DNA from: an uncultured Anaerolineae bacterium
GTDB taxonomy: Bacteria; Chloroflexota; Anaerolineae; Anaerolineales; Villigracilaceae
Assembly: GCA_903908605.1 (NCBI GenBank)
Contig: CAIVSQ010000221.1
Span: 1-55,995, forward strand
Direction: 5' to 3'
Length of the DNA stretch: 55,995 nucleotides
The first letter of the stretch is position 1. Each line of letters opens with the position of its first letter. Both the position numbers and the translations under genes were made by a program. A model generated the notes under the pieces. That model worked only from the letters and a program-made list of their open reading frames with translations, did not search any database and was not told the DNA's origin. Below, piece after piece: positions 1-18,559 of the stretch.

Positions 1-705
1 GATCTGTTCCAATCACACTCAAATGGCGCGCTGATTAACCTGTCGATAGCCTTGATGATTGCAAGTCTGACCGTTTTGGATTTGCCGGGAGTTTGTCCCA
101 ATGAAAAACTACGGTTCGAATTCAGGACCCAAATTACATCAACCCTGCTGGGGATGTCCAACGCACAGCATCTTGATCTTAGCAGGGAAGCGGAAACTGT
201 AACCCAGTGTTGGGAAATTGTTGGCGCAAAATCTGGATTGTTTTTTAAACTTGGTTGTTATCTTGGTGTCAGGATGGCAACCGACAACAAGGAAATTCTT
301 AACGCATTCATGAATTACGGTTATCATCTAGGAGTCATTGTTCAGATTGCAAATGACATCGCTGGTTTATGGAAAAAAGATCATAGCGGGGATATCTGCA
401 CAGGTATGAAGACACTGCCGATTGTTTATGCCCGCGAATATTATTCAGAGCAGAATAACCCTTTATTCGAAAAACTCCTATCAGAGGCCAAGGGATCATC
501 CGAGTCAGAACAGGCAGCGCGTAAAATGCTAATCGCAAGTGGGGCTATAATTTATCTGTGCCTTGAAGCCGAAAACCATAAAAAGGCAGCGATATCAGCG
601 ATCACATCCGTTCAGTCTCAACTGCGGCAGCCCCAACTCCTGATCGAAATGGTGGAGAACACATTCCAGTCTCATGAAATCCTTCCCTCTCAAGCCGGGT
701 ATTAA
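1..705 (+). CDS. ComQ-like isoprenyl transferase (polyprenyl synthetase family), 5' end outside window
   Basis: The reading frame is open from base 1, so the gene begins upstream and only about the last 234 residues are seen. The visible part matches the C-terminal two thirds of a trans-isoprenyl diphosphate synthase: a KSGLFF motif (the usual K-T/S-G), then a helix with the second metal motif as QIANDIAGLWKKD, then TLPIVYA. The second Asp-rich motif reads NDxxxxxxxD instead of DDxxD, a deviation I associate with ComQ-type enzymes that prenylate a peptide. The first Asp-rich motif would lie before the window. The gene overlaps the next gene, a ComP-like kinase, by 32 bp, which is the order comQ-comP. 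Base composition is clearly more AT-rich than the kinase that follows. An ordinary polyprenyl synthase is the alternative; the kinase neighbour argues for pheromone modification. Family call firm, ComQ role inferred. Confidence 0.75.
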   Translation, partial: DLFQSHSNGALINLSIALMIASLTVLDLPGVCPNEKLRFEFRTQITSTLLGMSNAQHLDLSREAETVTQCWEIVGAKSGLFFKLGCYLGVRMATDNKEILNAFMNYGYHLGVIVQIANDIAGLWKKDHSGDICTGMKTLPIVYAREYYSEQNNPLFEKLLSEAKGSSESEQAARKMLIASGAIIYLCLEAENHKKAAISAITSVQSQLRQPQLLIEMVENTFQSHEILPSQAGY

Positions 706-3046
706 CCTCATCTTCATCCTCGCCGCGCTCAGCTTATTGGGATTGCTGCTCTATTCCACCCGCCTCTCGCTCCAACAACCCTATTCTGAACTGCAGTGGA
801 ATTTCCGCAACGGCCTGGTCACCCGCGCTGTCAGCCCGGTGCGCACCGGCGACCGCATCGTCTCCATCGACGGCCTGTCCGTCTCCGCCGCGCGCCGCTT
901 CCCCGGCAAACACATCGCGGAAAGCGTGCTGATCGAATTCCAGGACCAGGCCGGAACCGTTCAGTCTACCCGGCTGATACTCTCCGCCCCGCCCGCCCTC
1001 GAACTCGCCAGCCGAATTAGCTTCCAGCTCATCGCCTTTGCTTTCTGGCTGCTTGCTGCCGCCATCCTGGCCTTTGGTTATCATGCCAGGGGCTATGCTA
1101 TTTTCATTCTCTTTTCCCAGCTCTTTGCCGTCATCTTCTCGCTTGGGTCCCTCTCTGCCTATGCCCCCATCTGGCTGGCCACTTTCTTTCACCTGGCCGA
1201 AATATGGATCGCCCCGCTTGCCATCCAGGCCCATGTCAACCTGCTTGGCTCAGCCCGCCCGCAACCGCACTTCACCAGGCTGGCCACCATCCTGGCTGGC
1301 ATCCTCTCCGCCCTCACCCTGTTCTTTGAAACCGGCCGGGATAACCCGGCCTGGGTGCGCTCCCTGCTGCTGATCTGGCTGGTGTCCACTGGCATTCTGC
1401 TGATTATCAGCCTTACCCACCAGCTTTTCTGGGGCCAGGAAAAGACCGCTTCCGCCACCCTCAAGCTGGTCCTGTCCGGGTTGGCCCTGGCTTTTGTACC
1501 CCTTGTGCTCTTTACGCTGTTGCCTGGGCTTTTATTCTCGCAGGTCGTCCTGCCATCCAGCCTCTCCCTGGCCTTCCTGGTTCTGATCCCTGCCAGCTAC
1601 GGCTACGCCATTTTTCGTAAAGAACTCATCCCTCTCGAACGTTATATCAACCACACCATCTCACTTTTTATCACCATCAGCCTGATTGCCGGGGTGTATG
1701 TCATCATCTTTCTGGCTGCCCGCCAGATTGTCCTCATCCCGGAACAATACCGGCTCGTCTTTGAACTGGTAGTCGTGCTGCTCCTGGCGTGGCTCGCCCA
1801 GCCCCTCTTCCAGAGGACCTCCGCCGCTGTTGGCAACCTGCTCTACGGGCCGCAATACGATCAGGTCACCACGCTCACCCTGGTCGGCGACGCGCTTTTC
1901 GGCACGCGGGGCGATCTGCTCGCCATCCTCGTCATCCTGGGCCAGTCTCTCATCCAGACCATGCAGATCGTCTATATTCGCATCCTGCTGCCGGGCAAAG
2001 TCATCCTGCTGGATGCCCAGGCTGGCCAGGTTCCCCAGCCCCAACAGATCGAAACCCCCGCCAGCCGCCAGCTCCTGGAAAACCTGCCCCGGCTGCCCGC
2101 CTACCAGTTCCAGCCCATCGGCCAGCTCGAGACTCTCTTACGCCGCAACAGCCTGACCCTCGCAAGGTTCGCCTGCGAAAATGCCCAGACCTGGCTGGTT
2201 GTCGCACGCCAGGAGCAGCCCCTTTGCCTGATCGTCTTTGGCAGGCAGCGCGGCGGCCGGGAATTTGACCAGCGCGAACTCAGCACGCTCGGCACGCTTT
2301 TCCAACAGGCTGCCGTCTCCATCGAAAACGCCATCATGGTCCAGGAATTGGAAACGCGCGCCGGGATGATCCGTCAGCTGCACCAGCGCCTGGCCGCCAC
2401 CCGCGAGCAGGAGCGCAAAAAAATCTCGCATGACCTGCACGACCAGGTCATTCAGGCCCTCGTTGCGCTAAATTTTTCATTCCACCAGGCCCGCCGCTTG
2501 CCCGCGCTGCAGCTCCAGGATTTGGATCAACTGCAGACAGAACTGCACCAGGTCCTGGTGGAAACCCGCCGGATTTGTGCTGATCTGCGCCCGCCGGTCC
2601 TGGATACGATTGGCGTCGTCCAGCTCATCCGCGCCCGGGTGCATGAACTGCGCAGCCAGGCCTCTTTTCGTATCAGCTTGCAACTGCTTGGAAGCGAAAC
2701 CATCATCATCCCTGCCGAAATTGCGTCCATTCTTTACGGCGTTTTCCAGGAAGGGCTGCAAAACATCCGCAAACACGCCCACTCTTCGCGCGTGGATATT
2801 GTCCTCGAAATTCAGCCCGAGACACTCACCTTCACCCTCAGCGATAACGGCCTGGGCTTCGAGCTACCTGCCCGCCTGGAATTATTCTCACTCAACCATC
2901 ACTTTGGGCTGGTTGGCTTGCGTGAGCGCGTGGAATCGGCTGGCGGAACATTCCAGCTCGAGACCGCCCCGGGCCAGGGCTGCCGCCTGGTCTGCCGTCT
3001 GCCGCTTGTGGGTCCTGATACTGATTGGGGGAATACATCCATATGA
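674..3046 (+). CDS. ComP-like multi-TM sensor histidine kinase
   Basis: A 790-residue membrane kinase. One N-terminal TM helix (about 10-30) is followed by a short PDZ-like segment (about 35-108, with TGDRIVSIDGLSV). Eight or nine further TM helices follow (about 115-375), then a GAF-like linker (about 450-565). A HisKA_3 domain has ERKKISHDLHDQ with the likely phospho-His at residue 589. A HATPase_c domain follows, with an N box (EGLQNIRKHAHSS) and a G box (DNGLGFE). A PDZ-like loop plus many helices plus HisKA_3 is the layout of ComP. The start overlaps the ComQ-like gene by 32 bp and the stop overlaps the regulator start (ATGA), so the three are probably co-transcribed. Kinase class certain; ligand (an isoprenylated peptide) is inference from the neighbour. 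Confidence 0.9.
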   Translation: MKSFPLKPGINLIFILAALSLLGLLLYSTRLSLQQPYSELQWNFRNGLVTRAVSPVRTGDRIVSIDGLSVSAARRFPGKHIAESVLIEFQDQAGTVQSTRLILSAPPALELASRISFQLIAFAFWLLAAAILAFGYHARGYAIFILFSQLFAVIFSLGSLSAYAPIWLATFFHLAEIWIAPLAIQAHVNLLGSARPQPHFTRLATILAGILSALTLFFETGRDNPAWVRSLLLIWLVSTGILLIISLTHQLFWGQEKTASATLKLVLSGLALAFVPLVLFTLLPGLLFSQVVLPSSLSLAFLVLIPASYGYAIFRKELIPLERYINHTISLFITISLIAGVYVIIFLAARQIVLIPEQYRLVFELVVVLLLAWLAQPLFQRTSAAVGNLLYGPQYDQVTTLTLVGDALFGTRGDLLAILVILGQSLIQTMQIVYIRILLPGKVILLDAQAGQVPQPQQIETPASRQLLENLPRLPAYQFQPIGQLETLLRRNSLTLARFACENAQTWLVVARQEQPLCLIVFGRQRGGREFDQRELSTLGTLFQQAAVSIENAIMVQELETRAGMIRQLHQRLAATREQERKKISHDLHDQVIQALVALNFSFHQARRLPALQLQDLDQLQTELHQVLVETRRICADLRPPVLDTIGVVQLIRARVHELRSQASFRISLQLLGSETIIIPAEIASILYGVFQEGLQNIRKHAHSSRVDIVLEIQPETLTFTLSDNGLGFELPARLELFSLNHHFGLVGLRERVESAGGTFQLETAPGQGCRLVCRLPLVGPDTDWGNTSI

Positions 3047-3681
3047 CCATCAAAATCCTTTTAGCCGACGATCATCCGCTCATCCGCTCCGGTATCCGCC
3101 TTGAGCTAACCCGCCAGGCTGGTATCGAAGTTGTCGCCGAGGCTCTCAACAGCGAAGATGCCCTCACCCTGGCGTTAAACCTCCTGCCCGATATTCTCAT
3201 TATCGATGTCAACATGCCTGGCCGTCCGGTTTATAAGATCATCCAGGAACTGAAATCCAAAACCCCCGCGCTGAAAGTCCTGGTACTCTCGGCCTATGGT
3301 GACCTGGGTACTGTTTCGGCCATGCTGCAGGCCGGTGCCAGCGCTTACGTGCTCAAGGATGATGACCCGGATGTCATCCTGCAGGCTGTCTACAGCTTGC
3401 AGCAGGGAGGCACCTGGTACAGCCGCCAGGTCCGTGAGCTGCTGGAAGGTTTGCGCCTGGACAGCCAGGAAAGCACCCCGCTTATGACCGAGCGCGAATC
3501 CGCCCTGCTGGACCTGCTGGTGGCTGGTGTTTCCAACAAGGAGATCGGTCATCAACTCGGTATCACCGAAAGGACGGTTGAATTTCACCTGGACCGAATC
3601 ATGGACAAAATCGGCCTGCGCGGCCGAACCTCCGTCGCCCTCTGGGCCCAGGAGCATCAATTTCTGCGCACAAGAAAATGA
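3043..3681 (+). CDS. NarL/ComA-family response regulator
   Basis: A 212-residue two-domain regulator. The receiver domain (1-120) has D9/D10, phospho-acceptor D55 (IIDVNMPG) and K105 (AYVLKDD). The C-terminal LuxR-type helix-turn-helix (about 145-205) contains LTERESALLDLL-like and SNKEIGHQLGITERTVEFHL motifs. I chose ATG 3043 over TTG 3025 because it overlaps the kinase stop as ATGA, begins directly at the family N-terminus (MTIKILLADDHP), and has a G-rich ribosome site at 3027-3031. It is the expected partner of the upstream HisKA_3 kinase. Target promoters are unknown; no obvious repeated operator was seen next to it. Confidence 0.93.
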   Translation: MTIKILLADDHPLIRSGIRLELTRQAGIEVVAEALNSEDALTLALNLLPDILIIDVNMPGRPVYKIIQELKSKTPALKVLVLSAYGDLGTVSAMLQAGASAYVLKDDDPDVILQAVYSLQQGGTWYSRQVRELLEGLRLDSQESTPLMTERESALLDLLVAGVSNKEIGHQLGITERTVEFHLDRIMDKIGLRGRTSVALWAQEHQFLRTRK

Positions 3682-4079: not shown

Positions 4080-5111
4080 TTATTTTTCTTTGGCTGGGCG
4101 GGTTTCGGTTTCGCCGTTGGCGTAGCGTGCGAAGCGGCCTGCTTCTCGCGGGTGGACCGGGTCGGTGCGATCCCAGGGCCAGCCGCCAAACTCGGTGCGC
4201 TGGTAGTCGGAGTAGGCCTGGCGGATTTCCTGCTGGCTGTTCATGACGAAGGGGCCGTACTGTACGACCGGTTCGGCGATGGGGACGCCCTGTAACAGCA
4301 GCAGGCGGGCTGGCTCGGAGCCTGTTTGCAGATCGAGACTGGTGGCGGGGCGCAGGTCAATGGCGTGGTAGGTGGGGATATCACGCCCGGCGGCGCGCAG
4401 GCCGGTGCCGGCAAAATAATAGAGGGTGCGTTGGGCATTTGGCCCGGCGGCGGGCAGGCTGAACTGTGCGCCCGCTTCCATCTCGATGATGGCGATAGCG
4501 ACTTCGTTAAGCGGGTCGGCGGCCCAGGAATCGGGGGCGGGGGCCAGGGCGTGGGCGCTGTTTAATTCGCCGGCGAAGAGGGTGATGTGCGTGGTTTTGC
4601 CGGAGGGGTCTGTGCTTTGCAGGTGGGTCATCTCTTCGGCCCACAGCATTTTGTAATGGGGGGTTGCGAACTTTTTGGCAGCCGGCAGGTTGAGCCAGAT
4701 CTGGAATAGCTCGAGTGGGTTTGGGTTGTCGCGGTCGAGCAGCGGGAACATTTCGGCATGCTGGAGGCCGCTGCCTGCGGTCATCCACTGCACGTCACCG
4801 TTGCCATAGCGGCCGGCGGCGCCGTGTGAATCGGAATGATCGACAAAACCGTTCAGCACGATTGTGACGGTCTCGAAACCGCGGTGGGGGTGGGCCGGGA
4901 AACCGGGCACCTGCTCGCCGTGATACATGCGCCAGCCATCACGCGGGGTGAAATCCTGGCCGAGGTCGCGGCCGGCCAGCGAGGCCTGCGGGCCAAATTG
5001 TTGGTTGCCGCGCGGGTAGGCGTCGGCGTGGTGGACACAGAAGAGGAAGGGGTCGATGGTTTCCCAGGCAAAACCGAGCGGCCTGAGGCGCAGGATGTCA
5101 TTGGCGGGCAT
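4080..5111 (-). CDS. Pirin family protein
   Basis: A 343-residue bicupin of the pirin family. The N-terminal cupin has HPHRGFETVT (metal ligands H74 and H76) and GLQHAEMF (H118, E120), the four usual iron-binding positions of pirin. The C-terminal cupin ends with the family-typical GPFVMN and Q-E-I-R-Q-A-Y-D-Y-Q segment. Bacterial pirins include quercetin-dioxygenase-like enzymes and regulators of metabolic enzymes; the role here is not clear. The start has a good AGGAG-type site. The upstream flavoprotein gene ends 3 bp before, so the two are co-transcribed. At 343 residues it is longer than the usual 230-300, through an extended C-terminal tail. Family certain, function open. Confidence 0.93.
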   Translation of the reverse strand: MPANDILRLRPLGFAWETIDPFLFCVHHADAYPRGNQQFGPQASLAGRDLGQDFTPRDGWRMYHGEQVPGFPAHPHRGFETVTIVLNGFVDHSDSHGAAGRYGNGDVQWMTAGSGLQHAEMFPLLDRDNPNPLELFQIWLNLPAAKKFATPHYKMLWAEEMTHLQSTDPSGKTTHITLFAGELNSAHALAPAPDSWAADPLNEVAIAIIEMEAGAQFSLPAAGPNAQRTLYYFAGTGLRAAGRDIPTYHAIDLRPATSLDLQTGSEPARLLLLQGVPIAEPVVQYGPFVMNSQQEIRQAYSDYQRTEFGGWPWDRTDPVHPREAGRFARYANGETETRPAKEK

Positions 5112-5114
5112 GGT

Positions 5115-6383
5115 TCAGTCTCCTTGCGGGGACGGGATGAGTTGGTTGGCGGTCAGCCAGGCCAGGGCGCCCTGCCCGGCGGCGCGGCCGGTGGAGAAGC
5201 AGGCCGTCAGCAGGTAGCCGCCGGTGGGGGCTTCCCAATCGAGCATTTCACCGGCGCAAAAGACGCCGGGCTGGTCTTTGAGCATCAGGTGTTGGTCGAG
5301 ACCCTCGAAGCGGACTCCACCGGCGGTGCTGATGGCTTCGGCCAGCGGGTGAGGGGCGATGAGAGGGATGCGCAGGGCTTTGATGGCGGCGGCCAGCTTG
5401 ACGGGGTCTTCCATGATCAGGCGCGGCAGGAATTCCCACAGCAGGCCGGCTTTGACGTCGCGCAGGCCGGTGGATTTTTCCAGGTGGCTGGAGAGCGAGC
5501 GTGAACCGCGCGGGCGGGCCAGGCGGGCGAGCAGCTCTTCGCGCGTGTGCCCGGGGGCCAGGTCCAGGTGGATGGTGGCGCTGCCGGCGCGCTCAATTTC
5601 ATCACGGATGAAGGCTGAGAAGGCGTAGATCAGGCTGCCTTCCAGGCCGTCACGGGTGACGATGAACTCGCCCTGGCGGCGGATGGCCGGCTGGCCGGCG
5701 GGGGTGAATTCGAGGACCACGGCTTTGAGCGGGCTGCCATCGAAGCGTTCGCGGAAGTGCTCGCTCCAGTGCACGTCGAAGCCGCAGTTGGCGGGTTTGA
5801 AGGGTGCCAGCGGAGTGCCGCGTGAGGCCAGCAGTTCGGCCCAGTCGCCGGTGGAGCCGAGCTGGGGCCAACTGGCGCCGCCCAGGGCCAGGATGACGGC
5901 CAGGTGTTGGGCGCTTTGCTCACCACTCTCGGTTTCGAAACGGAGATCCCCATCGGCGTTCCAGCCCAGCCATTTGTGGCCTGGGTGGAAGCGCACACCG
6001 CTTTCTTCCAGGCGTTTGCGCCAGGCCGAGAGCAGCGCGGCGGCTTTCATCTCAACCGGGAAAACCCGCCCGGAGGTGCCGGTGAAGGTTTCCACACCCA
6101 GCCCGGCGGCCCAGGCCAGCAGCTCTGGCGGGCCAAAGGCCTGCAGGTAGGGTTCCAGCTGTAGGCGGCGTTCGCCATAGCGGGCCAGGAACTGCTCGGG
6201 CGGCTCGGAGTGGGTCAGGTTGAGACCGCTGGAGCCGGCCACCAGGAATTTACGACCAACCGAGGGGTTGGATTCGTACAGGTCGACCGGCAGGCCAGCC
6301 TGGCTGAGGACTTCGGCGGCCATCAGGCCAGCCGGGCCGCCGCCGATGACGGCCGCGGGCGAGAGGGGATTGTTCAAATTCAA
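5115..6383 (-). CDS. HI0933/YhiN-type NAD(P)/FAD-dependent oxidoreductase
   Basis: A 422-residue flavoprotein. It starts with a Rossmann FAD site ([16 protein letters not shown], residues 12-27), then the family block [19 protein letters not shown], and ends with the C-terminal FAD-contact region ([20 protein letters not shown]). The GLNLTH version of the block is that of the PP4765-like subfamily (TIGR03862 type), not the GRCNxTN of YhiN itself. Substrate is unknown. The start overlaps the stop of the VF530 gene upstream by 4 bp, and pirin follows 3 bp downstream, giving a tight VF530-flavoprotein-pirin operon. Confidence 0.9.
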
Positions 6384-11817: not shown

Positions 11818-13686
11818 TCAGGCGATCTGCGCGGCGGGCAGGGCAACCGGTTGGCTGCCATAGGCCAGCTCACCCAATTCGGCCAGCATGGGCAGGCCTT
11901 TCACTTCGCAGGGCAGCAGCGGGATTTCGAGGACGGGGGTGCTAAAGCGCTGGCGGATTTCGGCCAGGTATTTTTCTTGCATGCGGCGGCGGGCCATGGC
12001 GAAGGGTGTGCTGGCCTGGTCGGGGGGGATGACCAGGTTGGCAACCACCAGGCCAGGCTGAATGCCGACGGTGGATAGTTCCTGGGCGGCGCGCCAGGCT
12101 TCGAGGATGGGGGTGGATTCGGGTACCATGACGAAGGCAAAGGTGCTCTGGGCCGGGTCGCGCATCATTTCGATCACCCCGGCGAAGCGCTGTTTGGCGA
12201 CGTCATCGGCGGCGCTGCCATCGACCGAGGCGAAGACCTTGACATCGATCTGCTGGCTCCAATCGACTGGCAGTTCGAGCAGGCGCATGGTGTGCCCGGT
12301 GGGGGCGGTGTCAAAGACGACGGCCTGCCAATCGGACTGGGAGGCGTAGTCGATAAACTGGTCGAAGGCGGCCATTTCTTCGGTGCAGGGCGAATCGAGC
12401 TCTTCTCGCATGACCTGGATGGCGCTTTCGGGCCGTCCGCGCTGGCGGGCGCTGGCGAGGATGCGGGCCTTGTAGCTTTCGGCGGCGGCCTTGGGGTCGA
12501 TTTTGACAACCCACAGGTTGGGGGCGCCTGCAAGGGTGGCGGGTGTGTCGCCGACCGGTTGGCCGAGCACGTCACCGAGGTGGGCGGCCGGGTCAGTGGT
12601 CAGCAGCAGGGTCTTGTACCCTTGGCTGGCCAGCCAGACGGCACTGATGCAGGAGGAGACGGTTTTTCCGACGCCGCCTTTGCCGGTGAAGAAGATTGTG
12701 CGGCGCTGGCCGTCGGGCAGGATGCGGGCACGAATTTCATTGAGCGAAGACGGGGTGGGTTGGGCGGCCAGGTTGCCGGGCTGCGGGTCGATATCGAAGG
12801 CGCCCGGATCGTTTTCAAAGAAGATGCGAGCCACCTGGCGCAGGCGGGCGGGGCCCTTGATCTCGCCTGAAAGCAGGGTCATGCGCTGGGCGGGGTAGGG
12901 TAAGAGTGCCTGGATTTGCTGCAGGTAGCCGGCTTGCATTTCGGCGCGGGCGGCGAAGAGCGGGTTGGCTGCTTCGCTGGCGGGGATGATGCCGTTGATG
13001 ATCAGGCGGTGGGTGTGAATACCGAGCTTGCCCAGTTCGGCGATGGCGCGCCCGGTTTCGCGGATGGCGATTGCTTCGGGGTGCAGGACGAAGATGAAGG
13101 TGGAGAGGGTTTGGTTGCGCAGGGTGGCCAGGGCATTTTCATACTTGTGTTTGGCGTCCTGGATGGCGGCGGCCGGCCCGATGCAGGTCTGCCCGCTGCC
13201 GGCGCTGGCGGCGTCGATCGATTGGCTCCACTCGGCTGGCAGTTCCAGCAGGCGGATGGTGTGGCCGGTGGGGGCGGTATCGAAGATGATGATCTCAAAA
13301 TCGATGGTGGTCTGGTCCTGGACGATGAAATCGGTGAAGCGGTCGAAGGCGGCCACCTCGGCGGTGCAGGGGCCGCTCATCTGCTCTTCCATGACCTGCA
13401 CCATCGAGGCCGGAAAAGCGGCGCGGATGGGTGCCAGGGCGCGGTCGACGTATTCACGTGTGGCGCTATCGGGGTCGATCTCCATGGCCCACAGGTTGGG
13501 GATGGCGCTGATGGAGGTGAGCTGGTGCCCGATGGGCTGTTCAAAGACATCCGCCAGGTTGGAGGCCGGGTCGGTGGTGACGATGAGGGTGCGGCGGCCT
13601 TCATCGGCGAAGCGCACGGCCTGGGTGCAGGCCATGCTGGTTTTGCCGACGCCGCCTTTGCCAGAGTAGAAAATAAAGTGGGTCAT
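11818..13686 (-). CDS. arsA: Arsenical pump-driving ATPase, duplicated
   Basis: A 622-residue protein of two homologous halves. Each has a deviant Walker A (SGKGGVGKTS at about 8-17; TGKGGVGKTV at about 335-343) and the ArsA signature DTAPTGHT with RLLELP. C107, C168 and C434 fall where the E. coli ArsA arsenite-site cysteines (113, 172, 422) are expected, so allosteric activation by As(III) is plausible. ArsA normally energises ArsB; none is seen here, so the partner is likely the permease at 14356 or a pump elsewhere. The start overlaps arsD (ATGA), matching the usual arsD-arsA pairing. Confidence 0.94.
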   Translation of the reverse strand: MTHFIFYSGKGGVGKTSMACTQAVRFADEGRRTLIVTTDPASNLADVFEQPIGHQLTSISAIPNLWAMEIDPDSATREYVDRALAPIRAAFPASMVQVMEEQMSGPCTAEVAAFDRFTDFIVQDQTTIDFEIIIFDTAPTGHTIRLLELPAEWSQSIDAASAGSGQTCIGPAAAIQDAKHKYENALATLRNQTLSTFIFVLHPEAIAIRETGRAIAELGKLGIHTHRLIINGIIPASEAANPLFAARAEMQAGYLQQIQALLPYPAQRMTLLSGEIKGPARLRQVARIFFENDPGAFDIDPQPGNLAAQPTPSSLNEIRARILPDGQRRTIFFTGKGGVGKTVSSCISAVWLASQGYKTLLLTTDPAAHLGDVLGQPVGDTPATLAGAPNLWVVKIDPKAAAESYKARILASARQRGRPESAIQVMREELDSPCTEEMAAFDQFIDYASQSDWQAVVFDTAPTGHTMRLLELPVDWSQQIDVKVFASVDGSAADDVAKQRFAGVIEMMRDPAQSTFAFVMVPESTPILEAWRAAQELSTVGIQPGLVVANLVIPPDQASTPFAMARRRMQEKYLAEIRQRFSTPVLEIPLLPCEVKGLPMLAELGELAYGSQPVALPAAQIA

Positions 13687-14355: not shown

Positions 14356-15393
14356 TTACATGATGAAGTTGAAAAGATAACCGGTCAGGATGATGGCCAG
14401 GGCGATGACACTCACGAAGATGGCGATCAGGCGCGGCTTGAGCACACGGCGCAGGATGACCAGTTCGGGCAGGCTGAGCCCGACGACGGCCATCATAAAG
14501 GCCAGAGCGGTGCCGAGCGAGGCGCCTTTCTCCATCAGGGCGCTGACGATTGGGATGATGCCGGCGGCGTTGGAGTAGAGCGGGATGCCGACCAGCACGG
14601 CGGCCGGGACGGACCACCAGGCCTGGCGGCCCATGATGCCCGCCAGGGCGCTCTCGGGTACGTAGCCGTGAATGCCAGCGCCCAGGGCGATGCCGATCAC
14701 CACGTACAGCCAGACTTTCGAGAAGATGTCTTTGACCGATTCCCAGGCTCGCAGGATGCGGTCGGACCAGGTCAGTTTTTCGATGACCCCTTCGCCGGAA
14801 GAGCGCATTTGCCAGACAAAATCCTCGACCTGCGATTCGAGCTTGAGCCGCCCGATGATCAGCCCGGCGCTGATGGCAATGACCAGGCCGGAGAGGATGT
14901 AGAGGCCGGCCACCTTCCAACCAAACAGGCCGAAGAGCATGACGATGGCCACTTCGTTGATGGTGGGGGCGGCGATCAGAAAGGAGAAGGTTACACCGAG
15001 CGGGATGCCGGACTCAACGAAGCCGATGAAGAGCGGCACGGCCGAGCAGGAGCAGAAGGGGGTGACGATGCCGAGCATGGCGGCCAGCACGTTGCCGACG
15101 CCTTCACGCTTGCCGCCCAGCAGGGCACGGGTGCGTTCGGGGCTGAAGAAGGTGCGCAGGAGCGAGATCAGGAAGACCATGCCTGAGAGCAGCAGCAGGA
15201 TCTTGGGGACGTCATAGAGAAAAAAGGCCAGCGATTCACCGAAGCGGGAATCCTGGGCGAGGCCGAGCAGTTCGAAGGATATCCAATTGGCCAGTGGTTG
15301 GATCAGGTTGTAGGCCAGCAGCCAGAGTACGGCGGCCAGGCCGGCCAGGACGGGCAGTTGGAAGGAGGGGCGGCGGATGGGTAAGGTGGTCAT
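14356..15393 (-). CDS. YraQ/ArsP-type permease (DUF318)
   Basis: A 345-residue permease with about eight to ten TM helices. The key block is TPFCSCSAVPLFIGFVESGIPLG, and it recurs as GIPLYSNAAGIIPIVSALMEKG, the two-repeat structure of this family. Members include ArsP, which exports trivalent organoarsenicals, and SO_0444-like metal exporters. I take ATG 15393, which overlaps the arsR stop as ATGA, over the frame's earlier codon inside arsR. It replaces ArsB or Acr3 as the only obvious arsenic permease of the operon. Whether ArsA drives it is unknown. Confidence 0.88.
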   Translation of the reverse strand: MTTLPIRRPSFQLPVLAGLAAVLWLLAYNLIQPLANWISFELLGLAQDSRFGESLAFFLYDVPKILLLLSGMVFLISLLRTFFSPERTRALLGGKREGVGNVLAAMLGIVTPFCSCSAVPLFIGFVESGIPLGVTFSFLIAAPTINEVAIVMLFGLFGWKVAGLYILSGLVIAISAGLIIGRLKLESQVEDFVWQMRSSGEGVIEKLTWSDRILRAWESVKDIFSKVWLYVVIGIALGAGIHGYVPESALAGIMGRQAWWSVPAAVLVGIPLYSNAAGIIPIVSALMEKGASLGTALAFMMAVVGLSLPELVILRRVLKPRLIAIFVSVIALAIILTGYLFNFIM

Positions 15394-15791
15394 TTTATAA
15401 TCAGGCTTTCGAGGGGAATCAGGTTGGGGATACAGTGCGGGCATTCGCACTCGCTGCCGGGCTCGGGGTTGGCCAGGGCGTCGACATCGGCGGGGCTGAG
15501 CCCGGCCAGGATGGCGGCATCACGCACCAGCGCCAGGATGGCTTCATCCTTGAGGCGGTAGTAGACATAGCGGCCTTCGCGGCGGTCGCTGAGGATATCG
15601 GCTTTGCGCAGGGCCATCAGGTGCTGGGAGATGTAGGCCTGGCGCCAGCCCAGGATGGATTCGAGATGGCAGACACAGGCCTCGCCGCGGCCGATGGCGA
15701 TGAGGATGGCGACGCGGGCGGGCGGGGCGATGACCTGCAGGGTCTCGGCGATGCGCTCGGAAAGCTCGGGGAGAGTCATATTTGGTTTCAT
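15390..15791 (-). CDS. arsR: ArsR/SmtB-family repressor
   Basis: A 133-residue winged-helix repressor. The metal site is GEACVCHLESILG (C39, C41 in the recognition-helix region, as in ELCVCDL of ArsR). The DNA-contact helix is QAYISQHLMALRKADIL, followed by the wing REGRYVYYRL. A second Cys cluster, ECECPHC, near the C-terminus may add metal ligands. ATG 15791 is preferred over ATG 15809 because the latter lies inside the operator and because a TATAAT box ends 6 nt before 15791, implying a leaderless message. First gene of the ars operon and probably self-regulated. Confidence 0.9.
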   Translation of the reverse strand: MKPNMTLPELSERIAETLQVIAPPARVAILIAIGRGEACVCHLESILGWRQAYISQHLMALRKADILSDRREGRYVYYRLKDEAILALVRDAAILAGLSPADVDALANPEPGSECECPHCIPNLIPLESLIIK

Positions 15792-15856: not shown

Positions 15857-18559
15857 TCAGGGCAGGATATATTCCACTTTCAAGGTCGGACGAGAGCCGG
15901 TTGAAGTTGAATTGCCGGAGTGGAAGGCGATGTAATCGGCAATCAGGTTATTGTTATCGTCCTGTGCAAAACGCAACCTGAATTGGGTGGGTCCGAATCG
16001 ATTGATATACAGGTAATTGGCTGGAGTTAACACCAGCTGATAAAAACCAGCGGCGCCGCTGACCGGGGTGAAGCTGCCGATACTTTTCTGGATGCCGGGT
16101 GATTGAAAATCAGCGACCTGCAGGCTTGGCAGGCTGCCAAAGAAACCGGTGGCGATATCGGCGGTTAGCTTGCCATAGGTGTCGAAGGGGTTGCTGCCTT
16201 CCACCCAGGCCTTCCGAATCACCAGGGTGACTTTTGTGATCTGGGCACGTGCTGGAATGGTGCTGGTGTTGAAATGCAGAATGGTGCGGTATTGGCGATT
16301 GAGAATGTCATCACCTGCGTAGAGAAACCTGGCGGAATTGACAGAGCCGCCGTTTTGACCAAACTCGGAAGATTCCAGTACCCAACCATCGAGAACGGCG
16401 GAGGAAGTGAATGTGTTGGCATGGTTGATGGTATAGTGCGGACCGTCCCAGGAGTAAGAACCTGTGCCGTTGTCGTTAAGAGGTTTGCCGATTGCATTTT
16501 TGATACTATCGTTATCATAAACGAGTAATTGAAGGGTGTTGGAGTCCTTGTCGGTGCTTACTGTAACGGTTCGCGAGGCTCCGCTTCCTGTTACTAAAAT
16601 TAATGTTGGCCTCTTCGTGAGACCATATCCAGAAAAATAAAAATCCTTTGCATCGACACCACTGACTGGCTCTGAAAAATTTACGGTAAAGCGGACCCTG
16701 GCTGCACTTGTTGGATTGGGGTCAGCCAGTTGGATGGAGGTGACACGGGGATAGGAGCGGTCGATAACGTAGTATTCACCTGCGGTGTAAGGCAAGGCCG
16801 TCATTGGGTTTCCAAGGGTGTCTTTTATAGTGGCGCTGCTGGGGATATCGAGGCGCAGGGTGCCGCTGCCCATGCCGGTGGAGACAGTTACGTATGCACG
16901 GTTCCAACCCTGATCAATTTTCACTATTTTCACATTTGTCAGACCGGGTGAGACCAGCATAAAATCGGCTATATCTACACCTGTAACGTCTCTCGAAAAT
17001 TCTATATGAAATGTAACAGTATCGGAGTAGGTTGGATTGTAATCATATCTTTTGATGGATACAACCTTAGGTTTTCCCTTGTCAATAATATAGGGTTCCT
17101 CGGCTGTATAAGGCAAGCCAATGAGTTGATTACCAGCGATATCCTTGATCACGGCAGAAGATGGTATTCGTAGATCAATCGTTCCACTGCCGGTACCGGT
17201 TGCAATTGTAATGGTACGAGAAGTTCCGGTTCCGCTTACACTGGTAACCCGAGCGCCGGTGATACCAGTGGAGATCAGGTTGAAGTCTGTAGTTCCCACC
17301 CCGGTTACTTCTTCTGAAAATTCGATGGAATACGAGATGAACTTTTCCCCAGTAGGGCTGGCATCTTCTTTCGATACGTAACCAACCTCGGGCGGAGTTT
17401 TGTCTATTTGATAATACTCGACACTATAGTCATTCCATGTTAATTCCAGCCCAGACATATCGGTGATGGTGGCGGTATCTGAGATTCTTACACCGATGGC
17501 CCCGTTACCGATGCCTGTGTTTACTGTGACTGTCCAGGTATCATCCATACCGGTTACGTCAATGATGCTGGCATTTTCTATCCAGTAATCCGCATCGAGG
17601 ACAAAATCATCGGTATCAACCCCAGTTACAGGTTCGGAGAAAATTACACTAAATTCCAGATTGGCAGCATTGGTAAGTGCGGGCGGCGTGATGGTAATTG
17701 CGGTGACCCAGGGTCTTTTTTCAATTGTGTAATATTCATCGCCAGTATAGGGCAGATTTGAAAGCAGATTACCAGCAAAATCGGTGATAGTGGTATCGAT
17801 TGGAATATCCAACCCCAGGGTACCATCTCCGCTACCTGTAGCAACAGTAACTATGTATTGTGTGCCATCACTATAAATGTCGGTTATTGAGGTTATGGAG
17901 GAACCGCTGACACCGGTTGCATTGAGTAGAAAAGTGGAAGGGTCTTCAACAACTGTTACAGGTTCCGAAAACGTTACATAAAAGTTAACGGTGGAAGCAG
18001 TTGTAGTACTGGGTGGTGTTATTAAAATTGAATTAACCGACGGAGCAGTTTTGTCGATCGAATAATAATCCCCGATGCTGTATGGAATATTTGTCATCGG
18101 GTTCCCCGCGAGATCGTTAATGGTCGCCTCAGCAGGGATATTCAGCTGTAGAGTACCATCGCCAGTGCCTGTATCGATGGTGACATAAAAAATATCATTT
18201 GCGCCATTGCTAGAAATATTTGTGATTGAAGCCCCGGTTATTCCAGTTGAATCCAGAACAAAATCTGCGGCATCCACATCCATCACGGATTCCGAAAACG
18301 TGACGGAAAAGTCTAGATACTGTAAATTTGATGTACAGTAAACATCACAAGAAATACCGATCACATTCGGAGGGTCAATATCCTGATTTTGCACACTTGG
18401 CTGGAACTGGCGAAGCACTGGATTGGGATCCTGGATAAAGATATTTGCAGGGAACGATGTATCCATGGGTTGATTGTAAGCACGGACTTTATCTAGCGGG
18501 AAAAAGCTTATGAAAGCCAGTAGAATGACAATCTGGAATATGATATGGATTTTTTTCAT
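15857..18559 (-). CDS. Large secreted Ig-repeat protein with C-terminal DNRLRE-like domain
   Basis: A 900-residue exported protein. Residues 1-27 are a signal peptide (KK, hydrophobic core, cut near KVRA). From about residue 63 to 660 six Ig-like repeats of about 100 residues follow, each running from a P-x-V start through FSExVxGVDxxDFxL and TGxGxGTLxLxIP to GNxLxxLPYTxxEYYxIDK. The last 240 residues look like a DNRLRE/CBM96-type domain (LHFNTSTIPARAQITKVTLVIRK). There is no sorting signal or C-terminal TM helix. The gene is more AT-rich than its neighbours, which may mean transfer or simply repeat-protein composition. A surface or matrix adhesin is likely; ligand unknown. Confidence 0.82.
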   Translation of the reverse strand: MKKIHIIFQIVILLAFISFFPLDKVRAYNQPMDTSFPANIFIQDPNPVLRQFQPSVQNQDIDPPNVIGISCDVYCTSNLQYLDFSVTFSESVMDVDAADFVLDSTGITGASITNISSNGANDIFYVTIDTGTGDGTLQLNIPAEATINDLAGNPMTNIPYSIGDYYSIDKTAPSVNSILITPPSTTTASTVNFYVTFSEPVTVVEDPSTFLLNATGVSGSSITSITDIYSDGTQYIVTVATGSGDGTLGLDIPIDTTITDFAGNLLSNLPYTGDEYYTIEKRPWVTAITITPPALTNAANLEFSVIFSEPVTGVDTDDFVLDADYWIENASIIDVTGMDDTWTVTVNTGIGNGAIGVRISDTATITDMSGLELTWNDYSVEYYQIDKTPPEVGYVSKEDASPTGEKFISYSIEFSEEVTGVGTTDFNLISTGITGARVTSVSGTGTSRTITIATGTGSGTIDLRIPSSAVIKDIAGNQLIGLPYTAEEPYIIDKGKPKVVSIKRYDYNPTYSDTVTFHIEFSRDVTGVDIADFMLVSPGLTNVKIVKIDQGWNRAYVTVSTGMGSGTLRLDIPSSATIKDTLGNPMTALPYTAGEYYVIDRSYPRVTSIQLADPNPTSAARVRFTVNFSEPVSGVDAKDFYFSGYGLTKRPTLILVTGSGASRTVTVSTDKDSNTLQLLVYDNDSIKNAIGKPLNDNGTGSYSWDGPHYTINHANTFTSSAVLDGWVLESSEFGQNGGSVNSARFLYAGDDILNRQYRTILHFNTSTIPARAQITKVTLVIRKAWVEGSNPFDTYGKLTADIATGFFGSLPSLQVADFQSPGIQKSIGSFTPVSGAAGFYQLVLTPANYLYINRFGPTQFRLRFAQDDNNNLIADYIAFHSGNSTSTGSRPTLKVEYILP

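Follow-up and report, generated by a model that had tools for sequence, protein, structure and literature searches.

The window, by which we mean the whole stretch of 55,995 nucleotides from an uncultured Anaerolineae bacterium, opens with three overlapping genes on one strand (Table 1). The first-pass annotation had described an isoprenyl transferase overlapping a multi-TM HisKA_3 kinase, which in turn overlaps a NarL-type regulator, and this layout was recovered with Pfam and the open reading frames, as were the two overlaps (32 bases, and then ATGA between the kinase and regulator genes). Because the transferase and kinase genes overlap, a precursor gene cannot lie between them. Base 1 of the contig (C221) is also the start of the window and lies inside the transferase, so that the available sequence lacks the N-terminal part of the enzyme, including the first Asp-rich motif. 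Misbinning of the contig was ruled out, the formate-tetrahydrofolate ligase of the window being 95% identical to that of the same-genus genome G001 and less similar to those of the other genomes listed.

Bacillus and its relatives are the described hosts of systems that couple an enzyme lipidating a peptide Trp to a membrane kinase sensing the small product. Judged by the domains that define ComQXPA, the transferase fragment matches PF00348 (E 1.2e-11, profile positions 106-247) and is adjacent to the kinase on the same strand, the kinase combines multiple TM helices with PF07730 and PF02518, and the adjacent regulator carries Response_reg (PF00072) and GerE (PF00196) domains. ComQXPA loci likewise consist of a PF00348 transferase, a multi-TM HisKA_3/HATPase kinase and a NarL-type regulator, encoded on one strand by overlapping genes.

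Table 1. Coordinates of genes and features at the start of the window
Feature	Position	Strand	Remarks
Trans-isoprenyl-synthase-like transferase	1..705	+	234 aa, 5' end cut by contig start; PF00348
Second Asp-rich region, Q-IA-ND-IAGLWKK-D	343..372	+	Q is residue 115 of the fragment
Transferase/kinase gene overlap	674..705	+	32 bases
Sensor histidine kinase, ComP-like	674..3046	+	790 aa
PDZ-like loop between TM1 and TM2	776..994	+	residues about 35-107; AlphaFold2 model
Sensor membrane helix bundle	995..1870	+	residues 108-399
HisKA_3 dimerisation/phosphoacceptor domain	2411..2602	+	Pfam
HATPase_c domain	2732..3007	+	Pfam
NarL/ComA-type response regulator	3043..3681	+	receiver plus GerE HTH

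The transferase and its clade

The second motif of the transferase reads Q-I-A-N-D-I-A-G-L-W-K-K-D in the translation, and the variant NDxxxxxxxD form had thus been given correctly in the first-pass annotation. Asn in place of the first Asp of this motif is found in all 15 Bacillota ComQ and ComQ-like rows, which share Q-x-x-N-D with the window, and in 1 of 52 other Chloroflexota rows. The Gln just before the motif is also present in 34 of 34 housekeeping rows and is therefore not discriminating for Trp-prenylating enzymes.

In the tree, the window transferase falls in a Chloroflexota clade that forms its own branch, apart from the housekeeping enzymes and from ComQ; the ComQ-side clade (support 100/99) comprises three ComQ from annotated comX loci and 12 Bacillota rows. 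The transferase scores 193 bits with the profile of its clade, 102 with that of the Bacillota ComQ-like enzymes, 69 with that of ComQ only and 89 with that of the housekeeping enzymes, and its highest-identity relative (in G112) is 30% identical. Neither the tree nor profile-profile scores join the Chloroflexota clade to ComQ over the housekeeping enzymes. Another contig of the source genome carries two further, strong polyprenyl synthases. A housekeeping FPP/GGPP synthase was ruled out, as tree and profiles place the transferase outside the clade of the other polyprenyl synthases of this genome and its relatives; the clustering with housekeeping synthases that would have spoken against the first-pass reading was not observed with the fragment used.

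A fold search with a transferase model, that of a modelled relative, was not discriminating, since GGPP synthases ranked above Ord1. This tryptophan farnesyltransferase (PDB 9v4g family) shares the trans-isoprenyl-synthase fold with the window enzyme and differs from it in using free Trp as substrate, according to the available part of PMC13290415, and in sequence, with about 21% of residues identical between Ord1 and the modelled relative. By their titles, solved structures of Ord1 include the mutants Q216A and D219A; the two altered positions, spaced by three residues, are presumably the Gln and Asp of the Q-x-x-D in the second motif. Searches of plasmids and phages with transferase sequences returned matches that were weak or unrelated, with the exception of three plasmids with annotated comX, which were retained as ComQ references, and a weak transferase-like match in L037 was dropped owing to its position inside a kinase gene.

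The clade set used for counting comprises the 53 loci with DNA at hand (L064, L074-L103 and L104-L126 without L115), out of a larger number of places that reach these scores, others being G262:C199, G295:C60, G405:C254 and further copies in G435, G551 and G650. Related loci in this set are not independent observations, and no weight is placed on P values. One search separates the last clade place, at 142.5 bits, from a following one at 133.5, and in another there was no clean gap to the housekeeping enzymes.

The kinase sensor and its pairing with the transferase

The first 400 residues of the window kinase contain ten hydrophobic segments, and its HisKA_3 domain was matched at E 1.3e-10. The sensor half resembles ComP in its succession of TM1, a PDZ-like loop and a TM bundle; ComP has a PDZ-like first extracellular loop, according to the accessible portion of PMC9620489. 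A PDZ-like loop had been noted at first pass as well. The loop between TM1 and TM2 is beta-rich in the AlphaFold2 model, but Pfam finds no PDZ domain in the window kinase, and the Foldseek matches of the loop, to PDZ-bearing proteases, have a probability of 1.00 but E values of 0.07-0.2, which are not significant. The homologous kinase of L144, the sole case among eight kinases scanned, has a PDZ_2 match (E 5e-9), and its loop gives matches to DegP/YlbL.

The sensor half occurs with two unrelated transmitter types, HisKA_3 and, in some relatives and in contrast to ComQXPA, PAS-HisKA. Used alone, without a profile, the window sensor matched two comX-locus kinases at E 0.13 and 0.41 only. The sensor profile gave 28-59 bits with the comX-locus kinases, the match to the Priestia kinase being heavily bias-corrected, and 83-91 bits with three Chloroflexota kinases of the control set, which thus score higher and have no transferase beside them in the DNA stretches examined.

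A ComP-like sensor starts downstream of the transferase at 47 of 50 clade loci, a count that is circular for the ten window or Chloroflexota loci whose sensors are rows of the profile (12 Bacillota loci lie outside it), versus 1 of 32 housekeeping loci, the single case being L022, a divergent system. The window is among the 50; three of the 53 loci have fewer than 700 bases downstream and are outside this count. Together with the recurrence of the same neighbours in other genomes, the pairing indicates that the arrangement is more than chance. The survey of Anaerolineae suggested at first pass finds the pair again: it recurs across the window's class and order, including other families of the order, and in dozens of genomes of both the genes for precursor, enzyme and receptor occur together.

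Precursors in relatives and known systems

A small open reading frame with a Trp near the C terminus was found just upstream of the transferase at 42 of 49 clade loci versus 6 of 38 controls, a contrast that is lowered by the presence in the control set of L017, a clade locus at the same place as L096, and of L022. The 49 exclude four of the 53 loci, including the window, in which the upstream DNA is shorter than 300 bases; seven of the 49 escaped the rule, and in one of these, L074, a precursor is recognisable by eye. In 21 of these 42 frames the Trp is at -2; one to three residues follow it in 28, and it is the last residue in none; in the two copies of G112 it is internal, 19 and 20 residues from the precursor end. 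Leader and Trp are conserved and the stretch between them is variable, and three precursors (L087, L112 and L114) have three to four repeated Trp cores. NF038399 was matched at E<=1 by seven of eight relatives' precursors, the highest score of 39.2 bits falling just short of the cut-off of 40, and by their sequences they appear to bear RiPP leaders of an NHLP-like kind. The ComX model PF05952 matched none of the eight at E<=1, in a scan run with no known ComX as positive control.

ComX is defined by a length of 52-73 aa, a position between comQ and comP and a Trp within the last 5-10 residues, as given in the part of PMC4008528 at hand. ComQXPA loci and the relatives of the window locus share a short precursor with a Trp near the C terminus; however, ComX follows the transferase, whereas the relatives' precursor lies upstream of it and the overlap in the window leaves no gap, the relatives' precursors appear to have NHLP-like leaders, and the Chloroflexota transferases form a branch separate from ComQ.

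In Paenibacillus alvei, one cluster, PalX/PalQ/PalP, encodes an NHLP-type precursor with a conserved C-terminal Trp, an isoprenyl-synthase-like transferase and a histidine kinase, according to the portion of PMC10853753 available. Going by its description, the Chloroflexota loci appear similar to it in the kind of leader and transferase and in the histidine kinase. A Gly before the Trp helps PalQ (PMC13290415, partial text), and Gly is common at this place in the Chloroflexota frames (GWR, GWM). In contrast, PalQ needs Trp as the last residue (PMC10853753, partial text), which is the case in 0 of the 42 frames, and the window operon includes a NarL-type regulator. Desulfosporosinus fructosivorans (L150) shares with the Chloroflexota loci the order X-Q-P-A, with the precursor first and a Trp near its end (..RFWV), and the ComP-like sensor, but its transferase groups with ComQ and not with the Chloroflexota clade.

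A putative prenyl-peptide signalling system

Gene order, overlaps, homologies and the co-conservation of precursor, transferase and sensor support the system class, and we read the three genes, with a probability of roughly 0.75, as a prenyl-peptide signalling system of the same build as ComQXPA and the Paenibacillus Pal cluster, with the first gene encoding the transferase, the second the receptor and the third the regulator. It is not a strict ComQXPA system, given the upstream precursor, the lack of ComX-model matches and the frequent Trp at -2. The comQ-comX-comP-comA reading of the first-pass annotation holds for the class, the sensor likeness and the Trp precursors of relatives; it fails on the missing gap for comX and the separate transferase branch. 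Of its peptide-prenylation quorum sensing outside Bacilli, tree, pairing and precursors bear out the system class, and the signalling itself is proposed here as follows. A short precursor with an NHLP-type leader, encoded upstream of the transferase in relatives and here presumably beyond the contig start, would be recognised by the transferase, which would place an isoprenyl chain on the Trp near its C terminus. The core would be cut free and then probably exported, and the lipidated peptide would be sensed outside by the kinase module of TM1, PDZ-like loop and TM bundle. The kinase would phosphorylate the NarL-type regulator and thereby change the transcription of target genes, possibly in a density-dependent manner. 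Several observations weigh against this reading: the window's precursor and the first transferase motif are missing from the assembly, the tree and profile scores leave the clade unjoined to ComQ, the ComX model gives no match, the Trp is never the last residue and is internal in G112, the window sensor matches the comX-locus kinases weakly and three control kinases outscore them, three of the 50 clade loci show no sensor downstream, no gene for export, cleavage or a target emerged, and G001 lacks the locus at the syntenic place.

It is fairly unlikely that the source species harbours an orphan or decaying copy, with a transferase acquired separately or a precursor lost, and a kinase that answers a neighbour's signal or nothing. 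The third-position GC of the transferase (0.457) is well below that of the kinase (0.749), the regulator (0.684) and five other window genes (0.67-0.81), and this gap is larger than in 11 other loci examined. The locus is absent from the syntenic place in G001, and no transferase-kinase pair was shown in same-genus genomes by a transferase search and the scoring of at most 16 kinase candidates per genome, a search that could miss a very divergent copy because G099's own transferase scored only E 4.2e-7. Absence of the pair in close relatives, named at first pass as an argument against its reading, is thus indicated in part, within the genus, and not in the other families of the order. The precursor profile found nothing in the source genome versus six of six other genomes, though all six had contributed profile rows. 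An initial contig scan with the transferase fragment gave nothing, and no other contig of the source genome was found to share the first 141 bases of C221, which one without overlap could still continue. Yet the three frames are open and tightly overlapping, the conserved Q and second motif are present, and the contig stops short of the precursor's expected place.

The product could instead be a prenylated RiPP that acts as an antibiotic or in some other way, in which case the kinase and regulator would form a local switch for self-sensing or immunity rather than a sensor of population density. Leaders of the NHLP-like kind typify RiPP natural products, multi-core precursors resemble product-making clusters, PalQ was introduced as a RiPP enzyme, and peptides with prenyl groups can be antimicrobial (PMC13290415, in the part available). 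We consider this unlikely, as no transporter, protease or immunity gene was recognised by eye among the listed flanking frames as travelling with the set, the flanks differ between loci, and a precursor, a transferase and a receptor together make up the gene set expected of a signal module.

That the transferase makes a prenyl diphosphate or a small isoprenoid, for example a free amino acid carrying a prenyl group as in the case of Ord1, and that the kinase senses this product, would agree with the fold of the enzyme, with the Ord1 structures among the fold matches and with the invisibility of the window's precursor. The upstream frames would then be incidental, which their enrichment over controls, their conserved leader and Trp around a variable stretch and their repeated cores make very improbable. 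An ordinary polyprenyl synthase overlapping a kinase by happenstance, for which the sole Pfam name (polyprenyl_synt) speaks, is extremely unlikely in view of the two other synthases of the genome, the position outside the housekeeping clade and the conserved pairing.

A prenyl-peptide signalling system in this phylum would extend the known range. A 2014 census lists no comQXPA-like loci outside Firmicutes in the part of PMC4008528 available, a 2022 survey gives only a kinase-regulator pair for Chloroflexi in the accessible part of PMC8895600, and searches of the open-licence PMC literature listed no report recognisable as a Chloroflexota prenyl-peptide system; as far as we found, peptide signalling in Chloroflexota is little described. 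The chances are about even that Trp-prenylating peptide signalling has a third lineage, specific to the phylum Chloroflexota, with transferases that split from or arose apart from ComQ, NHLP-leader pheromones, some with three to four tandem cores, and one ComP-type receptor module on both HisKA_3/NarL and PAS-HisKA outputs. As precursor, enzyme and receptor occur together in dozens of genomes, the prenyl-peptide reading lends itself to a direct test in which the proteins are co-expressed and analysed by mass spectrometry. The Chloroflexota transferases may be a new pool of Trp prenylation catalysts, and the multi-core precursors and swapped transmitters offer a natural experiment on the wiring of a lipidated-peptide receptor. 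If the third-lineage reading is true, the same kind of lipidated peptide would drive different regulators across the phylum.

Three genes of the window and the transferase lineage

Open reading frames and Pfam matches confirm the three genes of the first-pass annotation, a transferase, a HisKA_3 kinase and a NarL-type regulator, with an overlap of 32 bases between the first two and an ATGA shared by kinase stop and regulator start. Contig C221, which forms the window, begins within the transferase gene, and the N-terminal part with the first Asp-rich motif and everything upstream fall outside it. Its first 141 bases are common to no other contig of the genome, and a precursor profile search of this genome gave zero matches; two further, strong polyprenyl synthases are encoded in it, both on contig C11.

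Features of the window
Feature	Position	Strand	Remarks
Transferase fragment, 234 aa	to 705	+	open frame at contig start; PF00348 match from profile position 106
Kinase, 790 aa	start 674	+	HisKA_3 and HATPase_c (Pfam)
Regulator	ATG at 3043	+	Response_reg and GerE (Pfam)
Pirin-like and flavoprotein-like genes	4080-6383		also in stretch L173
622-aa protein	11818-13686	-	two ArsA-like ATPase halves (read by eye)
Permease	14356-15450	-	close to ArsA-like gene
900-aa protein	15857-18559	-	probably exported; repeated Ig-like units, C-terminal DNRLRE-like part (by eye)

In an unrooted tree of 105 transferase rows, the window groups with Chloroflexota transferases (97/92 for a starred set of 34 rows, 100/92 for the whole group of 53), and this group stands apart from a ComQ clade (100/99) as well as from 34 housekeeping rows; the ComQ clade comprises 12 Bacillota rows and three ComQ from Lysinibacillus, Anoxybacillus and Priestia plasmids with annotated comX. 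The fragment therefore does not cluster with housekeeping synthases; such clustering of the complete enzyme had been named beforehand as speaking against a signalling enzyme. A shared origin of the Chloroflexota and ComQ groups apart from the housekeeping enzymes is settled neither by the unrooted tree nor by profile scores.

A His precedes the first Asp-rich motif in 33 of the 34 housekeeping rows and in none of 52 Chloroflexota and 15 Bacillota rows. The second motif is Q-x-x-N-D in all 15 Bacillota rows and Q-x-x-D in 51 of the 52 Chloroflexota rows; its conserved Gln is also found in 34/34 housekeeping rows and is hence no proof by itself. The description of the window motif (Q-I-A-N-D) as a variant was apt, as the ComQ-type letter is absent from all but one other row of its branch. 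The modelled transferase of a relative has an ordinary trans-isoprenyl-synthase fold.

Precursor genes and sensor kinases

Directly 5' of the transferase, relatives carry a small gene with a Shine-Dalgarno-like site, mostly of 62-94 aa (full range 49-125), and in its product a Trp lies close to the C terminus (GWR, NWR, GWM, SWVL, PWVI, PWTII). By one rule, an upstream ORF with Trp in the last 25 residues was found in 42 of 49 clade loci (the 53 Chloroflexota loci minus four with too little upstream DNA, the window among them) versus 6 of 38 housekeeping controls, and with Trp in the last 10 residues in 31/49 versus 2/38, the controls including two actual members, L022 and L017 (a clade locus, the same place as L096). 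The Trp is at position -2 in 21 of the 42 ORFs. Most loci within the order share the precursor start MxLAqVVYqlStDxxFA..DPexAL..GLxLSxEE, and starts outside the order are different. Among eight precursors scanned, seven match NF038399 (Os1348 family, NHLP clan) with E<=1 and five with E<1e-4, the best at 39.2 bits, slightly below the curated cut-off of 40, and that of locus L067 has no match; four match the Frankia_peptide family weakly.

The Trp core (GPWGWQF, SWYQ) is repeated in tandem within one precursor, three times in loci L087 (oriented 1186-1470) and L112 and four times in L114 (oriented 996-1373); several peptides may come from a single gene of this kind. Genome G127 has two precursor genes in tandem. 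For four Bacillota transferase-kinase pairs (L154, L164, L165, L166), no Trp-tailed ORF was listed upstream of the transferase; the precursor may lie between the two genes, as in comQXPA.

According to a sensor profile made from the window kinase plus nine kinases of Chloroflexota, a ComP-like sensor start follows the transferase in 47 of the 50 clade loci with at least 700 bases downstream (the exceptions being L084, L119 and L121), in 12/12 Bacillota loci and in 1/32 housekeeping transferase loci. This sole housekeeping match, L022 of genome G107 (L178 1770-5226), has a very divergent transferase outside the main clade, on a long branch beside the housekeeping clade, which overlaps a ComP-like kinase and is preceded by a small ORF ending GWGGWY, so that it is probably a divergent member of the system. 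Among 102 control ORFs, three other Chloroflexota kinases scored 83-91 bits and the rest at most 2.2 bits. Because the stretches fetched for these three and for two kinases of genome G099 contain no transferase, the sensor type also occurs alone. Kinases related to that of the window, without a transferase match in the stretch fetched, are those of L068, L069, L175, L176 and L177, which would be orphans or would respond to other signals; that of L037/L175 seems to have no PDZ-like loop.

The same profile matched two comX-locus kinases at 59 and 28 bits and, like these, the kinase of Desulfosporosinus fructosivorans (L150) at 51 bits, collinear over the full sensor, although for the 28-bit match the bias correction exceeds the score. 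Used alone, the window sensor reaches the two comX-locus kinases at no better than E 0.13 and 0.41. The AlphaFold2 model of window kinase residues 1-400 (11 rows, mean pLDDT 74.5) has TM1 at 8-34, a beta-rich loop up to residue 107 and then a helix bundle. The beta-rich loop is consistent with the PDZ-like loop claimed earlier, as are Foldseek matches to PDZ-bearing proteases (probability 1.00 over about 88 columns); however, every Foldseek E was at least 0.05, and Pfam found no PDZ in the window kinase. One of eight related kinases scanned (L144) passed the PDZ_2 cut-off, and its loop matches DegP and YlbL chains. For ComP of B. amyloliquefaciens, PMC9620489 describes ten TM segments, the first and second of which flank a PDZ domain.

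The transmitter is HisKA_3 in the kinases of the window, G112, G099 and L144, and PAS plus HisKA in L134, L142 and L147. The sensor thus keeps its association with transferase and precursor across different transmitters, and this is the best indirect evidence that the ligand of the sensor would be the product of the transferase.

Recurrence and genomic setting

Transferase, kinase and regulator lie side by side in genomes G112, G099 and G139, and transferase and kinase are adjacent in G127 (fragment search of 150 related genomes, kinase search of 61); G112 apparently has a second copy, divided over two contigs. A six-row transferase profile found, in 400 genomes of the order, 34 places in 32 genomes with at least 142 bits, including the window and the profile's own source loci, the next place having 133.5 bits. 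With a 25-row profile, 396 genomes of the class yielded more members in other orders, with scores lacking a clean gap, and of 18 named loci from a similar search, one is from Desulfosporosinus fructosivorans and the other 17 are MAG records labelled Chloroflexota, Anaerolineales or Anaerolineae. The survey of relatives suggested at the outset thus shows that the pair recurs in order and class. Nevertheless, transferase-fragment and kinase searches gave no match at the level of a paired locus in any of the 10 same-genus genomes (the strongest transferase match there had 1.3e-13, and the kinase was matched in its transmitter part only), the kinase search covering at most 16 candidates per genome and the transferase of the paired G099 itself reaching just E 4.2e-7. 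Absence from close relatives, which had been expected to count against the proposal, is therefore apparent for the genus at the sensitivity of these searches, which may miss a very divergent copy, and does not hold for the order and class; the distribution is patchy.

The contig belongs to this genome, as judged by the 95% identity between its formate-tetrahydrofolate ligase and the enzyme of the same-genus genome G001. The pirin-like and flavoprotein-like genes are syntenic in G001, where other genes follow; with gene names assigned by eye, an aldo/keto-reductase-like gene stands further on in place of the operon, which marks a synteny break. Third-position GC is 0.457 in the transferase versus 0.749 in the kinase, five other window genes also being far above the transferase, and this gap, larger than in 11 other loci, suggests that the transferase was acquired separately or recently. 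There is a hint that the transferase, presumably with its precursor, is exchanged apart from the receptor. Elsewhere on the contig, the ArsA-like protein and the permease look, by eye, like an arsenic resistance pair.

Relation to known signalling systems

By analogy, the locus would work like ComQXPA of Bacillus and like PalXQP of Paenibacillus alvei, yet it fails defining features of each. In contrast to ComQXPA, no precursor lies between transferase and kinase in the window, and none of the eight relatives' precursors matches the ComX model PF05952; in contrast to PalXQP, the Trp is the last residue in 0/42 of the relatives' ORFs. The comQ-comX-comP-comA order proposed earlier is retained for transferase, ComP-like kinase and regulator, but there is no room for a precursor between the first two. 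Prenylation, trimming, export and sensing would probably follow the pattern of ComQ and PalQ (PMC10853753, PMC13290415): the leader would dock the precursor onto the transferase, the precursor Trp would receive an isoprenyl group from this enzyme, the peptide would be trimmed and then leave the cell, and the exported trimmed peptide would act on the sensor.

A 2014 census states that it found no comQXPA locus outside Firmicutes (PMC4008528), and a 2022 paper says that the kinase-regulator pair is present in Chloroflexi (PMC8895600). A search limited to open-licence papers, most of them judged by their listing, found no report of a complete system in Chloroflexota.
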